DNA from: a virus
IMG/VR virus record: IMGVR_UViG_3300031730_000059
Coordinates: 1 to 53,415 of that record
Direction: 5' to 3' (one strand)
DNA length: 53,415 bases
Shown piece after piece: positions 487-45,196 of the stretch (position 1 is its first letter; every line of letters starts with the position of its first letter). Position numbers and translations under genes: made by a program. Below the pieces are notes generated by a model that was not told the origin of the DNA, did no database searches, and saw only the letters and a list, made by a program, of their open reading frames with translations.

Positions 487-935
487 TCGCCTTCACCGTC
501 CCAGGCCAGCCCCAAGGCAAGGGCAGGGCGAAGATCGTCAAGATAGGCGGCTTCTCGCGCATGGCCACGCCAGCGAAGACCGTGGCCTACGAAGGCCTTG
601 TTGCGCACGCGGCGCAGTTCGCCATGCGCTCGACTGGCCAGATCGAGCCGATGCAATGCGCCGTGTCGGTGAATCTCGCCATCGACTGCCAGGTACCTGC
701 GAGCTGGTCGCAGAAGAAGCAGCGCCAGGCGCTCGCAGGCGAAGTGTTCCCGACCACGAAGCCCGATGTGGACAACGTCGTGAAGGCCATCTTCGACGGG
801 CTGAACGGCGTGGTCTGGAAGGACGACGTGCAGGCGGTGGACTGCCGCATTCGAAAGCGCTACTCGGCCACGCCGGGTGTGCGGGTGGAGGTGTGGGCCA
901 TCGAGGCGCCGCTTCAAGAACGGATCGCTGCGTGA
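483..935 (+). CDS. rusA: RusA-type Holliday junction resolvase
   Basis: This 150-residue endodeoxyribonuclease of the RusA family resolves four-way junctions made during phage replication and recombination, so that linear DNA can be packaged. The N-terminal segment MIAFTVPGQPQGKGR is typical of the family. The metal-binding motif KPDVDN (residues 93-98) is followed by a lysine at 101 and WKDD (112-115), matching the catalytic aspartates known in RusA. I chose ATG 483 because it overlaps the previous stop (ATGA); an in-frame GTG at 474 is possible. RusA genes often sit at the end of the middle region just before terminase genes. Here the sugar cassette separates the two. Confidence 0.93.
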   Translation: MIAFTVPGQPQGKGRAKIVKIGGFSRMATPAKTVAYEGLVAHAAQFAMRSTGQIEPMQCAVSVNLAIDCQVPASWSQKKQRQALAGEVFPTTKPDVDNVVKAIFDGLNGVVWKDDVQAVDCRIRKRYSATPGVRVEVWAIEAPLQERIAA

Positions 936-1084
936 TGCTGATCTGCAAACCGAAAGGACGTGGCAATTGGAAGCCGATCTCTGTGTCGATCGAGGGCGAC
1001 CGCGTGTCGCCGATCTTGATCCGCGTGGGCGCCGAGTTGACGCTGGGCGGCATCGTGTTCCGGATCTGCAAGGTACTCACATGA
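935..1084 (+). CDS. Tiny hypothetical protein linking rusA to the sugar cassette
   Basis: This 49-residue, basic, beta-rich product contains two cysteines (positions 4 and 45) and no recognisable motif. Its ATG shares one base with the rusA stop, and its own stop overlaps the ATG of the PseB-like gene at 1081. This coupling on both sides is the main reason to call it real. Its function is unknown. Confidence 0.6.
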   Translation: MLICKPKGRGNWKPISVSIEGDRVSPILIRVGAELTLGGIVFRICKVLT

Positions 1085-1923
1085 AGTCAATTCTCGTCAC
1101 CGGCGGGGCCGGATTTTTCGGCCGCGGGTTCGTCCGCGAAGCGCTTGATCGAGGTGCTGAGCGCGTCTGCATCTTCTCGCGCGGCGAGTACCAGCAGGCG
1201 CTGATGCGCAGGGAGTTCGATGACGATTCCCGGCTGCGCTGGTTCATCGGCGATGTGAGATCGCAGGACCGCCTGGAAGAGGCGATGGATGGCATTGACG
1301 TGGTGGTGCACGCCGCCGCCTTGAAGCGCATCGAGGTCGGCTTCTACAACCCGGACGAAATGTTCGCGACCAACATCGACGGAACACGCAACGTGATCCG
1401 CGCGGCGAAGCGTGCCGGTGTTCGAAAGGTCATCGGCCTGTCTTCCGACAAGGCCTTCGAGCCTTGCAGCGCGTACGGAATCAGCAAGGCCGGCGCCGAA
1501 TGCTTGATCCTGGCGGCGAACAACACGCGAGGGGCATCGGGCCCGATCTTCGCCGCGGTGCGCTACGGCAACGTGTGGAACAGCACCGGCTCAATCGTGC
1601 CGACCTGGCGCGCACGCATCGCTGGCGGTGGTGTCGACTTGCCTGTCACCGACCCGGAATGCACTCGCTTCTTCATGCGGCGTGCCGAGGCGGTAGAGCT
1701 CGTGATGGAGACCGCCGACACGATGCGCGGCGGCGAACTCGCGATTCCTGCATTGCCGGCGTTCCGTGTGGGTGACTTGGCCGCGGCGTTCGGCCTTCCG
1801 ATGGCGCTGACTGGCCTTTCCGAGTTCGAGAAGAAGCACGAGTCGATGGGCCCCGGCAACAGCAGCGATCGCGCGCGGCGCATGTCCGTGGCCGAACTAC
1901 GGGAGGCGCTCTGTGAAGCATGA
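1081..1923 (+). CDS. pseB: PseB/FlaA1-like UDP-GlcNAc 4,6-dehydratase (SDR family)
   Basis: This 280-residue extended SDR enzyme should catalyse the first step of pseudaminic acid synthesis: inverting 4,6-dehydration of UDP-GlcNAc to the 4-keto-6-deoxy-L sugar. The NAD(P)-binding glycine motif is at residues 8-14 (GGAGFFG). The catalytic Asp-Lys pair (D123, K124) is followed by Y132 and K136 in SSDKAFEPCSAYGISK. The Asp to Tyr spacing of nine matches the FlaA1/PseB class rather than ordinary SDR epimerases. GNVWNSTGSIVP is another class-typical segment. It is somewhat shorter than bacterial PseB (about 330), but the core looks intact. The start overlaps the previous stop by four bases. Confidence 0.88.
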   Translation: MKSILVTGGAGFFGRGFVREALDRGAERVCIFSRGEYQQALMRREFDDDSRLRWFIGDVRSQDRLEEAMDGIDVVVHAAALKRIEVGFYNPDEMFATNIDGTRNVIRAAKRAGVRKVIGLSSDKAFEPCSAYGISKAGAECLILAANNTRGASGPIFAAVRYGNVWNSTGSIVPTWRARIAGGGVDLPVTDPECTRFFMRRAEAVELVMETADTMRGGELAIPALPAFRVGDLAAAFGLPMALTGLSEFEKKHESMGPGNSSDRARRMSVAELREALCEA

Positions 1924-38719: not shown

Positions 38720-39733
38720 CTAGGCCGCCTTCGGGCGGTCTTTCTCTTTGGCGGTGTGCGGGGATTTTCGCCTTCCAATCGTGCCAACAGCGTCCGCCAG
38801 CGTGTCGGAAGTCAGGTGGCTGTAGCGCTTGGTCGAGCGCGCGTCCTTGTGCCCAAGCACCGCCCCGACCGTGAACAGCCCGACCCCGGCGTTCACCATT
38901 TCGCTGGCCGCGCTGTGCCTCAAGTCGTGAATGCGGACGTGCCCCAGCCCAACGGCCCGCCGCGCGCGCGCATAGCCCGCCTGGAGCGTTCGTTTGCCTG
39001 CGGCGAGGGGAAGGTAGCGCAGGCAGGTTGCGATGCGCGGATGGGCCGGGATGCTCCGACGATCCCCGTTCTTGGTGTCGGACAGGTGCAGCGCCCCGCC
39101 TGACACCTCGACGCGCATCAGCTCCCCGAGCCGCATGCCGGTGTAGAACGCTGTGCGGATCAAGGCCCGCACATCCGGCCGGTCTGCCGCCCGGGCAAGC
39201 TGGAGCATCTGTTTGCGGCTGGCGTAGACGTGGCGCTCGTTCCTCACCTCGGGCAGTTGCATGCGCCCGGTCGGGTCGGATTGGCACATGGCGTGCTTCT
39301 TCCATCCCCAGCGACATGCGGCCTTGAGCAAGGCCAAGCGGTTTTTGATGGTGGCGGGCTTGAGGATCACGCCGGCCCGCACACCCTCCCGGGTGTCGCT
39401 GATGAGCTTGGCGACCTGTGGCAGCGCGGAGAAGGGCTTGCCGCTGTACGCCCACGCGATCTGCCCCAGGTTCTCCCGGGCGCTCACGAAGCTCTTGAGG
39501 TGCGACTTGTCGCGGAGGTAGTGCAGCACGGCGTCATCGATCAGCGGGTCGGCTGGCTGGATACCAGTTCCAACAGCGTAGAGGCGCCCGCTCTCTTTGC
39601 GGTCGAAGGCGTCGGCCTGGGCTTGAGTCCAGCCTTGCGGAAGTAGGCGGCTAGTTCGCTGCCTGCGGCCTTCAATGACACGGTCGAACTCGAAGCGCCA
39701 GCGCTTGTTTCTGGTGTCCCAGCGGATCGACAT
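38720..39733 (-). CDS. int: Tyrosine integrase
   Basis: This 337-residue site-specific recombinase has catalytic residues R201 (TGMRLGEL), K221 (DTKNGD), H269 and R272 (IHDLRHS), H295 (GHKDARS) and the nucleophile Y304 (KRYSHL). The N-terminal part has an arm-binding start (RWDTRNKRWRFEF) and a core-binding domain at about 65-160. Its 3' end abuts the tRNA-like attP. The first 193 bases of the gene overlap the upstream HTH gene in another frame, and no ribosome site is seen, so its translation may depend on that gene. Confidence 0.95.
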   Translation of the reverse strand: MSIRWDTRNKRWRFEFDRVIEGRRQRTSRLLPQGWTQAQADAFDRKESGRLYAVGTGIQPADPLIDDAVLHYLRDKSHLKSFVSARENLGQIAWAYSGKPFSALPQVAKLISDTREGVRAGVILKPATIKNRLALLKAACRWGWKKHAMCQSDPTGRMQLPEVRNERHVYASRKQMLQLARAADRPDVRALIRTAFYTGMRLGELMRVEVSGGALHLSDTKNGDRRSIPAHPRIATCLRYLPLAAGKRTLQAGYARARRAVGLGHVRIHDLRHSAASEMVNAGVGLFTVGAVLGHKDARSTKRYSHLTSDTLADAVGTIGRRKSPHTAKEKDRPKAA

Positions 39734-39882
39734 GATGCAAGGTAGGCGGCTACGTCAGAAGGGTCGAAGCGTACCGCATCGCCAAAACGCAGCGACGGCA
39801 ACTCACCCCGGGAGGCGAGCGCGTAGACGTGGCGCTTGCTGATCCCGAGTTGAACTGCGACGGCGTTGGCGGTAAGCATCAT
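39541..39882 (-). CDS. Excisionase/AlpA-like helix-turn-helix protein overlapping int
   Basis: This 113-residue protein has an N-terminal MerR/excisionase-type HTH: LTANAVAVQLGISKRHVYAL followed by ASRGELPSLRFGDAVRFDPS (residues about 3-45). Such proteins bend DNA for excision or regulate integrase. The final 60 or so residues are Ser/Ala/Pro rich and come from reading the start of int in another frame. It starts at ATG 39882, sharing one base with the stop of the upstream mini-gene. The 193-base overlap with int is unusually long. Confidence 0.75.
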   Translation of the reverse strand: MMLTANAVAVQLGISKRHVYALASRGELPSLRFGDAVRFDPSDVAAYLASCRSAGTPETSAGASSSTVSLKAAGSELAAYFRKAGLKPRPTPSTAKRAGASTLLELVSSQPTR

Positions 39883-39971
39883 CAATCTTCTGCGTGGGTC
39901 TGAAACACTGTCCTGTTGCACTCCACGGACCCCCTGCTAGACATGAGAGCCCGCAGGAGAGCCTTGTTCAT
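39882..39971 (-). CDS. Mini-protein between transporter and HTH gene
   Basis: This 29-residue product (MNKALLRALMSSRGSVECNR and nine more) is linked by an ATGA overlap to the transporter stop and by TGATG to the HTH start. The double coupling suggests it is translated. Its function is unknown; it may serve as a coupling leader. Confidence 0.45.
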   Translation of the reverse strand: MNKALLRALMSSRGSVECNRTVFQTHAED

Positions 39972-40012
39972 CTGGCCTGAGCGCTTCGGCTTGTCCACTG
40001 GCGCGGTTGGTG
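39963..40012. repeat. Approximate 50-bp repeat, copy A (transporter 3' end)
   Basis: About 80 percent identical to 44424-44473. The shared core is ATCTGGCCTGA, then GTCCACTGGCGCGG (plus strand). In this copy it covers the last codons of the VUT gene and the start of the following mini-gene. Confidence 0.6.
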
Positions 40013-40474
40013 TCGCGAAAGTGCCCACGCCCATAGCGCCCCGCCCGCCACCTTCGCCACGAACTGCAAGAGCACGATGTGCGGCATCAGAGCACCGAAC
40101 GCCAGTGTCGGGAAGATCAGCGAGTCCACTGCCGCGCCGGCCACGTTCGAGCCGTTCGCGCGGAACAGCCACGAACCTCGCAGCTTGGTGAACGTCGCCC
40201 AGTCCACCAGAGCGGCAGCACTGAAGGCGCACGCGCTCGCCACCGCGATCATCCCTGCTGCCGGGTTCAGCACGTAGGTGAGCATGCCCGTGCAGGCGAT
40301 CAGCGCGCCCATCTGCCACGCCTTCATGCGGACTTGCAGCCAGTCCCGAAGAGCCAGGTCGAGACCGATCAGCACAAAGGCATTCACCGGCGAGATTGCA
40401 GGCCCGAAGGCGGCGACGCTCAGGTTCGCCAGCGTCATCGCGGCGGCGTAGATCAGGATTGCAAGGATCAGCAT
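39968..40474 (-). CDS. VUT-family queuosine precursor transporter (YhhQ-like)
   Basis: This 168-residue integral membrane protein has about five or six helices. AFVLIGLDLALRDWLQ and NVAGAAVDSLIFPTLAFGA are typical of the VUT/YhhQ family, whose members import preQ0 or preQ1. It is shorter than bacterial YhhQ (about 220), as phage forms often are. The ATG has an AGAGG site and overlaps the DpdA-like gene by seven bases, so the two are co-translated. This supports a salvage route feeding 7-deazaguanine to the transglycosylase. Confidence 0.82.
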   Translation of the reverse strand: MLILAILIYAAAMTLANLSVAAFGPAISPVNAFVLIGLDLALRDWLQVRMKAWQMGALIACTGMLTYVLNPAAGMIAVASACAFSAAALVDWATFTKLRGSWLFRANGSNVAGAAVDSLIFPTLAFGALMPHIVLLQFVAKVAGGALWAWALSRHQPRQWTSRSAQAR

Positions 40475-41145
40475 AGGGCCTCTTGAAGTGGTCGCTCCGT
40501 CCAAAGACTCGGCGGGTTGGTTGCGTCGATAGGTCGGGCTTTGCACTCTGCGCAGCCGGTGTCACGTTTGAAGTTCTGAGCCACGTTCGTGCTGTCGGCG
40601 CTGGCAAGCGGCCACGGCCCGGAAGCCTGCCCAAGCATCCGCAGGCCGTGAACCCAAGGCAGGCGCCCGAAGGTGCGGACAAGCGCGTTGAACGCCTCGT
40701 CCATGCGGCCATTCCAGGCCGGCGAGCCAATCTCCCAATACTGCCCGGCGCTGCCGAAGCACACGCGGCCCCAGTCCTCGCACAACTCCAGCAGGTAATC
40801 GACGGGCAGGCCAAGGTGCCACACGGGAATCCCGAACTCTCGGCGGTGCGGCCACGTTGCAACCATCTCGCGTTGTTGCTCCACCGTGCCGTCGATCACG
40901 TCAGGAACAACAGCCCAATGCGGGTGCGCCAGGATCGGATCGATCCATTCATAGAAGCCGTGCAGGTCGAACTCATCGCCGCGCGTCTTCACGCTGAAGG
41001 CCCCGTTGTCCAGCATGAGCGACTGCCCAATCCGAAGGCAGTGATCGAGGTTGTCAGGTCGCGCGAAGGACACACAGAAGTTCCGCCCGCTCATGCGTTC
41101 GAGCTGGGCCTTCGGTGTTATCGGCGTCCCGTGGTAATGGATCAC
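40468..41145 (-). CDS. DpdA-like DNA transglycosylase (TGT superfamily)
   Basis: This 225-residue protein carries a family pattern common to phage DpdA/TGT-like proteins: SLMLDNGAFSVKTRG (residues 42-56), WAVVPDVIDG (77-86), IPVWHLGLP (106-114), HGLRMLG (166-172) and ASADSTNVAQN (181-191). Asp 46, 82 and 184 are candidate catalytic or base-binding residues. A late CAEC may bind zinc. DpdA enzymes exchange guanine in DNA for a 7-deazaguanine. No preQ0 synthesis genes (folE, queC, queD or queE) are visible. The start is GTG 41145 behind AGGAG. Confidence 0.75.
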   Translation of the reverse strand: MIHYHGTPITPKAQLERMSGRNFCVSFARPDNLDHCLRIGQSLMLDNGAFSVKTRGDEFDLHGFYEWIDPILAHPHWAVVPDVIDGTVEQQREMVATWPHRREFGIPVWHLGLPVDYLLELCEDWGRVCFGSAGQYWEIGSPAWNGRMDEAFNALVRTFGRLPWVHGLRMLGQASGPWPLASADSTNVAQNFKRDTGCAECKARPIDATNPPSLWTERPLQEALC

Positions 41146-41221
41146 TTTGCTCCTATCTCACATAAACCGCCTTCAGGCTTCTCCCCGAAGGCGCGCAGAT
41201 CAAATCAACAAACAAACCCTC

Positions 41222-45167: not shown

Positions 45168-45196
45168 ATTATAGCACAGGTGACATGTCACGTCAA
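45168..45196 (-). promoter_or_regulatory. Consensus sigma70 promoter with palindromic operator
   Basis: On the minus strand TTGACG (45196-45191) and TATAAT (45173-45168) are 17 bases apart. A perfect 12-base palindrome GTGACATGTCAC (45180-45191) occupies most of the spacer and touches the -35. It drives the leftward run from 45139 and is likely repressed by a dimeric regulator. That regulator is not the one of the 50-kb switch, whose operator differs. Confidence 0.9.

Follow-up and report, generated by a model that had tools for sequence, protein, structure and literature searches.

A dpdA–vut gene pair in a temperate tailed phage as a candidate minimal cassette for 7-deazaguanine salvage and DNA marking

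In a viral contig from IMG/VR (53,415 bases, 64.9% G+C; hereafter the window), a gene assigned to the DpdA family of 7-deazaguanine DNA transglycosylases overlaps a gene for a YhhQ/Vut_1-family membrane protein, and we propose that the two genes serve a temperate tailed phage as a minimal cassette for 7-deazaguanine salvage and DNA marking. The proposal starts from what can be observed directly, namely the two protein families, the retained catalytic positions, purifying selection on both genes, their overlap, their repeated pairing in other phages and the interchange of the transporter gene with preQ0 synthesis genes. We consider it probable that Vut imports preQ0 or a related base, which DpdA then exchanges into DNA. 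During infection, the cell would take up a 7-deazaguanine base through the Vut/YhhQ-like protein, with preQ0 as the likeliest candidate, and DpdA would swap the imported base for guanine in DNA by a TGT-type base exchange. If the related systems of phages 7-11 and MED16 are a guide, the final base would be dADG and the mark would be sparse instead of a bulk replacement; any benefit to the phage is inferred. The kind of system, base exchange by a phage DpdA, is already known, while the two-gene version consisting of dpdA and a probable importer proves to be widespread.

Table 1. Features of the dpdA–vut locus and of the leftward gene run in the window.
Feature	Position	Strand	Description	Evidence
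dpdA	40468..41145	-	225 aa, DpdA (7-deazaguanine DNA transglycosylase family)	PHROG 887, hhalign, invariant residues, barrel model
vut	39968..40474	-	168 aa, membrane protein of the YhhQ/Vut_1 family with six long helices predicted	PF02592, profile match, model
ATGCTGA	40468..40474	-	vut start and dpdA stop (7-base overlap)	read directly
Excisionase-like helix-turn-helix gene	39541..39921	-	downstream, same run	PF12728 2.8e-11, TIGR01764 7.5e-11
Tyrosine integrase	38720..39733	-	end of run	PF00589 3.6e-15, phrog_1 1.2e-36
Likely promoter of leftward run	45168..45196	-	TTGACG-17-TATAAT with TG	11/12 matches

A preliminary description of this DNA had placed two open reading frames here with a seven-base overlap, and reading the sequence gives the same result (ATGCTGA, 40474-40468). 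The dpdA gene starts with GTG and has AGGAG just 5' of this codon; the vut start that produces the seven-base overlap is the ATG at 40474, with AAGAGG just 5'. The longest open reading frame for vut covers 39968-40546, and use of its in-frame GTG at 40546 would lengthen the overlap with dpdA. The pair sits within a run of leftward genes, the last of which are the excisionase-like and tyrosine integrase genes, and the promoter match assigned to this run (45196-45168, minus strand) is suggestive at most, with 1 site found versus 0.9 expected in shuffled sequence. On its plus strand the window encodes a terminase, a head-tail adaptor and a major head protein and has endolysin-like genes; its right end holds replication genes along with one for a DnaB-like helicase. 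The preliminary description had regarded the position of dpdA beside int as unusual, a view that does not hold: the temperate phages SfI, HK106 and BTP1 have a dpdA of the same family in a leftward run ending in xis and int, as in the window, and in the IMG/VR relative L037 dpdA is a few genes away from int. Unlike the window, SfI, HK106 and BTP1 have no vut adjoining dpdA.

Relative to their counterparts in L006, both genes are under purifying selection (dN 0.21 and dS 1.09 for dpdA; dN 0.16 and dS 0.71 for vut), with synonymous sites being saturated in comparisons to some of the other relatives. Both are real genes under selection. That the cassette is a neutral passenger, decayed or unexpressed, we regard as very improbable: both frames are intact and have a ribosome-binding site, dN is far lower than dS in each gene, and our scans found hundreds of relatives. 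What speaks for this explanation is the relative L090, where vut is split into two frames (L090:2155-2456) next to an intact dpdA, indicating that phages can lose or replace the transporter.

The earlier observation that the window lacks preQ0 synthesis genes was borne out by searches for FolE, QueD, QueC and QueE, none of which was found. The QueC, QueE and TGT profiles have no match in the window, and neither does a tblastn search with FolE, QueD, Gat-QueC and QueE of phage 9g, bearing in mind that the contig may be a fragment with further genes beyond its ends. PADLOC likewise gave no match, and neither a preQ1 riboswitch nor any other Rfam family was found near the cassette in the window. 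A 10-pair GC-rich hairpin without a T run is present approximately 25 bases upstream of the dpdA start (41168-41193, minus strand); it may influence translation of dpdA or be due to chance, given that the window has 8 terminator-like sites versus 8.0 expected. Near the left end, a nucleotide-sugar epimerase-like gene (877-1923, plus strand; phrog_540, 1.3e-29) is unusual company for replication or packaging genes.

The assignment of the first gene to DpdA is based on several lines of comparison, all of which agree with the preliminary description. The window protein matches PHROG 887 (queuine tRNA-ribosyltransferase) with E = 4e-47, and the same PHROG also matches the DpdA proteins of phages 9g (2e-98) and 7-11 (7e-74). 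A profile built from 28 relatives (A1) aligns in hhalign with 7-11 DpdA over nearly the full length (E 7.5e-42) and with 9g DpdA (E 6e-10, probability 96.6), while the reversed A1 alignment, used as a control, matches neither. Pairwise identities are 37% over 180 residues to 7-11 DpdA (BLASTP) and 39% to MED16 DpdA. Base exchange into DNA has been shown for Enterobacteria phage 9g, whose DpdA shares the PHROG and the Asp, Asp and His196 positions with the window protein: Asp46 (LDNGAFS), His166 (VHGLR) and Asp184 (SADST) are invariant in the 28 sequences and align with 9g Asp72, His196 and Asp215. By contrast, 9g has its own precursor synthesis (FolE/QueD/Gat-QueC/QueE) and is heavily modified, whereas the DpdA of the window is shorter and has no synthesis gene alongside it in the window. 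No Pfam or NCBIfam model matches the window DpdA. Taken together, the 225-aa protein can be assigned to the DpdA family from its sequence.

Two related enzyme types were considered and rejected. DpdA2 proteins, of the type found in Vibrio phage nt-1, do not have the conserved His196 (Hutinet et al., PMC6884629), and since its equivalent (His166) is present and invariant here, we assign the window protein to DpdA and not to DpdA2. A tRNA TGT was rejected as well, as the Pfam TGT model does not match the window DpdA and the CxxC at residues 198-201 is not conserved in the 28-sequence alignment, leaving no conserved zinc-site cysteines; the A1 profile, moreover, has no match among 10 host TGTs. 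The structure model (pLDDT 85.8) is barrel-like, and its best annotated viral structural matches bear the name queuine tRNA-ribosyltransferase (E 2e-8 to 1e-5). Against the PDB the model retrieves TIM barrels in general, with mouse TGT in fifth place (probability 0.97, TM 0.47), and the fold alone is therefore no proof of family. Direct PDB sequence searches with either protein or either profile yielded nothing useful, and RNase H matches with E values of about 0.3 were dismissed.

The kinship of the second gene to YhhQ, also put forward in the preliminary description, is supported by a match to Pfam Vut_1 (PF02592; 6e-11, 43.3 bits versus a gathering score of 27.2), which involves only the C-terminal half of the profile, and by one to phrog_4899 (7e-38). 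A profile of 20 relatives (A2) matches chromosomal YhhQ homologues of the hosts at 2.9e-10, with a negative reversed control. The structure model has six long helices (pLDDT 89.4), and its best PDB matches, which are weak, are ECF S-components such as RibU. Scores below the cut-offs of the queuosine precursor transporter equivalogs (TIGR00697, 21.6 versus 50.95 bits; NF008406, 18.4 versus 252) indicate that vut belongs to a divergent phage branch of the YhhQ/Vut_1 family. E. coli YhhQ (COG1738) is likewise a PF02592 protein with six predicted membrane helices, but has approximately 220 residues compared to the 168 of the window protein. In E. coli, preQ0 transport requires YhhQ, and YhhQ subgroups apparently differ in specificity (PMC5372724).

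How often do the two genes occur together? Among the 80 nearest IMG/VR relatives, vut is directly downstream of dpdA on the same strand in 59; about a quarter of the close dpdA relatives lack vut. In a second, profile-guided scan, the contigs of which partly duplicate those of the first, vut is downstream in 51 cases, upstream in 12, near in 1 and absent in 12. Both orders occur in named phages, with vut preceding dpdA in PEAT2, Flyfo Tbat1_6, ECO111 5-P, Opt-79, LHE71, Phc and RCIP0319 and following it in Pam5, RHph_N3_2 and AB3P2. Among the gene families near dpdA, vut ranks first (67 of 114 loci, mostly at a tight distance; the next family reaches 32), and the genes that flank the pair are hardly common to different phages. 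Mapping the downstream position of the transporter onto the DpdA tree requires 12 changes, and well-supported branches force no fewer than 9 of them; near copies and fragmentary contigs limit both the tree and the pair counts. With at least 9 to 12 changes of state, the pair has been gained or lost repeatedly and not inherited once, and dpdA–vut is a mobile cassette found in otherwise unrelated phages.

The strongest evidence that the DpdA branch of the window uses a 7-deazaguanine supplied by a neighbouring gene comes from relatives in which queC, queD or queE occupy the vut slot, in place of vut or together with it, an interchange that ties this group of DpdA proteins to 7-deazaguanine supply. 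The relative closest by identity (L037, 82%) has no vut, but the order dpdA, a nucleoside deoxyribosyltransferase-like gene (NDT), queE and, further on, an integrase; its QueE matches TIGR04508 at 9e-29, which is below the curated cut-off, and a QueE-like PHROG at 2e-21. A search starting from this QueE returned 20 loci, 10 of them with a nearby DpdA of this superfamily and none of those 10 with vut; some DpdAs in this set are distant, and its loci cannot be counted as independent cases. In L246 (53% identical to the window DpdA), the order is queD-dpdA-queE, with a QueE above the curated cut-off (293 versus 240 bits), and in L243 (55%) it is vut-queC-dpdA with all genes overlapping, the QueC being identified by Pfam at 1.2e-41. 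Further arrangements are dpdA-queE (L156), queE-dpdA (L158), dpdA-queC-queE (L157) and, in the more distant L159, queE-queC-folE-dpdA. Of the preQ0 pathway, L156 and L158 show just queE beside dpdA and L246 shows queD and queE, as if to boost single host steps, but these contigs are fragments and other genes may lie outside them. A QueD annotated beside dpdA in Caulobacter phage DMCA has weak support (E 0.0015) and was not used as evidence.

These arrangements bear on the idea that DpdA marks DNA using preQ0 made by the host, with a dispensable Vut that serves some other import or export. Neither the overlap of vut with dpdA in two orders and its repeated gains or losses, nor the occupation of the same slot by preQ0 synthesis genes, would be expected for a bystander, and we consider this alternative rather unlikely. 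It does account for the many relatives without vut and for phages 7-11 and MED16, which are modified without having a vut (PMC6884629, PMC8306585). In addition, phage mEp021 has a vut relative (L139:3929-4441) with a phosphofructokinase-like PHROG gene on one side and DNA methyltransferases on the other, and no DpdA was detected in this 8.4-kb locus (L139).

The hosts provide a further argument for use of host preQ0. Of 16 bacterial genomes found to contain a dpdA of this kind, 14 have a full-length queC. The two queC-less hosts, Rhizobium subbaraonis and Devosia ginsengisoli, possess a chromosomal Vut_1 gene besides the one at dpdA, so that all 16 are equipped with queC or, failing that, with Vut_1 on the chromosome. 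All the hosts thus have some route to a precursor, and vut is not simply a marker of hosts that are unable to make preQ0. These data are compatible with import as a booster and with a DpdA that draws on the host pool. As most hosts make preQ0 themselves, a need for import is not obvious; the vut-less fraction of close relatives, a transporter that is short and scores below curated cut-offs, and the mere traces of modification in relatives also count against import followed by exchange. Our preferred explanation, import by Vut followed by exchange into DNA, retains from the salvage model of the preliminary description the link of the two genes through precursor supply, which is supported by the repeated pairing and the interchange with queC, queD and queE; the imported base may be preQ0, preQ1 or queuine.

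The same genomes are relevant to a third possibility, namely that the substrate of the enzyme is RNA (tRNA) and that the two genes adjust queuosine levels in the infected cell or lysogen. The protein is a member of the TGT superfamily, and since tgt is present in all 16 hosts, the Q pathway probably is as well. In Ideonella livida, which has queC, the sole Vut_1 match is the gene beside dpdA, so that lysogeny might confer uptake of the precursor. A dpdA of this kind is uncommon in that host family, where 2 of 301 genomes carry one. Set against this are the lack of profile matches to tRNA TGTs and of conserved zinc cysteines and the clear match to DpdA proteins whose action on DNA has been demonstrated or implied (PMC6884629), making action on tRNA distinctly unlikely, more so than the use of host preQ0.

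Measured modification in related phages gives an indication of the extent of marking. The singleton DpdAs of 7-11 and MED16 belong to the same branch as the window DpdA (37-40% identity), with the catalytic positions kept, and like the window these two phages have no preQ0 synthesis genes. Salmonella phage 7-11 contains 50 dADG per million nucleotides, corresponding to 0.02% of G (PMC6884629), and in Pantoea phage MED16 dADG amounts to 0.13% of G, with the DNA still being cut by most restriction enzymes tested (PMC8306585). For Orion, the host of which lacks preQ0 synthesis, no dADG was found (PMC6884629). Bulk modification with protection from restriction is unproven and perhaps overstated, and these two measured relatives do not support it. 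However, we searched 7-11 and MED16 for a Vut homologue and neither encodes one, whereas the window does, so that a dpdA–vut cassette may still give bulk protection. We found no DNA-modification or transport test on a dpdA–vut phage in the literature. Haloviruses HCTV-1 and HCTV-16 resemble the window in combining 7-deazaguanine machinery with YhhQ in one virus, but also carry the preQ0 pathway (PMC8651126); in the window, no supply gene other than the transporter was found. A broader proposal, which we put forward tentatively and with clearly less confidence than import by Vut, is that a transglycosylase and an interchangeable supply gene (an importer or partial preQ0 synthesis) form a mobile cassette of temperate and other phages that places a sparse, perhaps site-specific mark and does not serve bulk anti-restriction.

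Hutinet et al. (2019) grouped together 76 phages that have dpdA and lack precursor genes, and left open what such phages use; they noted YhhQ in some phages, without correlation to any phage group (PMC6884629). In many phages with a small DpdA, dpdA overlaps or directly adjoins a gene of YhhQ type, the position of which queC, queD or queE take or share in relatives, so that the question of salvage becomes testable with two genes in E. coli. The single locus is ordinary among hundreds of relatives, and what is worth testing is the wider pattern of a small DpdA accompanied by a supply gene that can be exchanged. Such a test would bear on whether import raises modification above the trace levels of 7-11 and MED16, and on whether a lysogen gains a new uptake of queuosine precursors.

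Other genes near dpdA include PAPS-reductase-family genes, which are frequent (22 loci, e.g., L007:4913-5992); in Rhizobium subbaraonis, such a gene ends right at the dpdA start. We considered these neighbours as substitutes for QueC, but the two that were tested score as PAPS_reduct and match QueC only weakly or not at all. Finally, L090 has a Mom-like gene near dpdA (L090:3885-4412; PF25680, a weak match tested in L090 only), and similar genes occur in L011 (L011:5247-5774, same cluster) and L157 (L157:200-727, alike by eye), possibly representing neighbouring DNA-modification functions.
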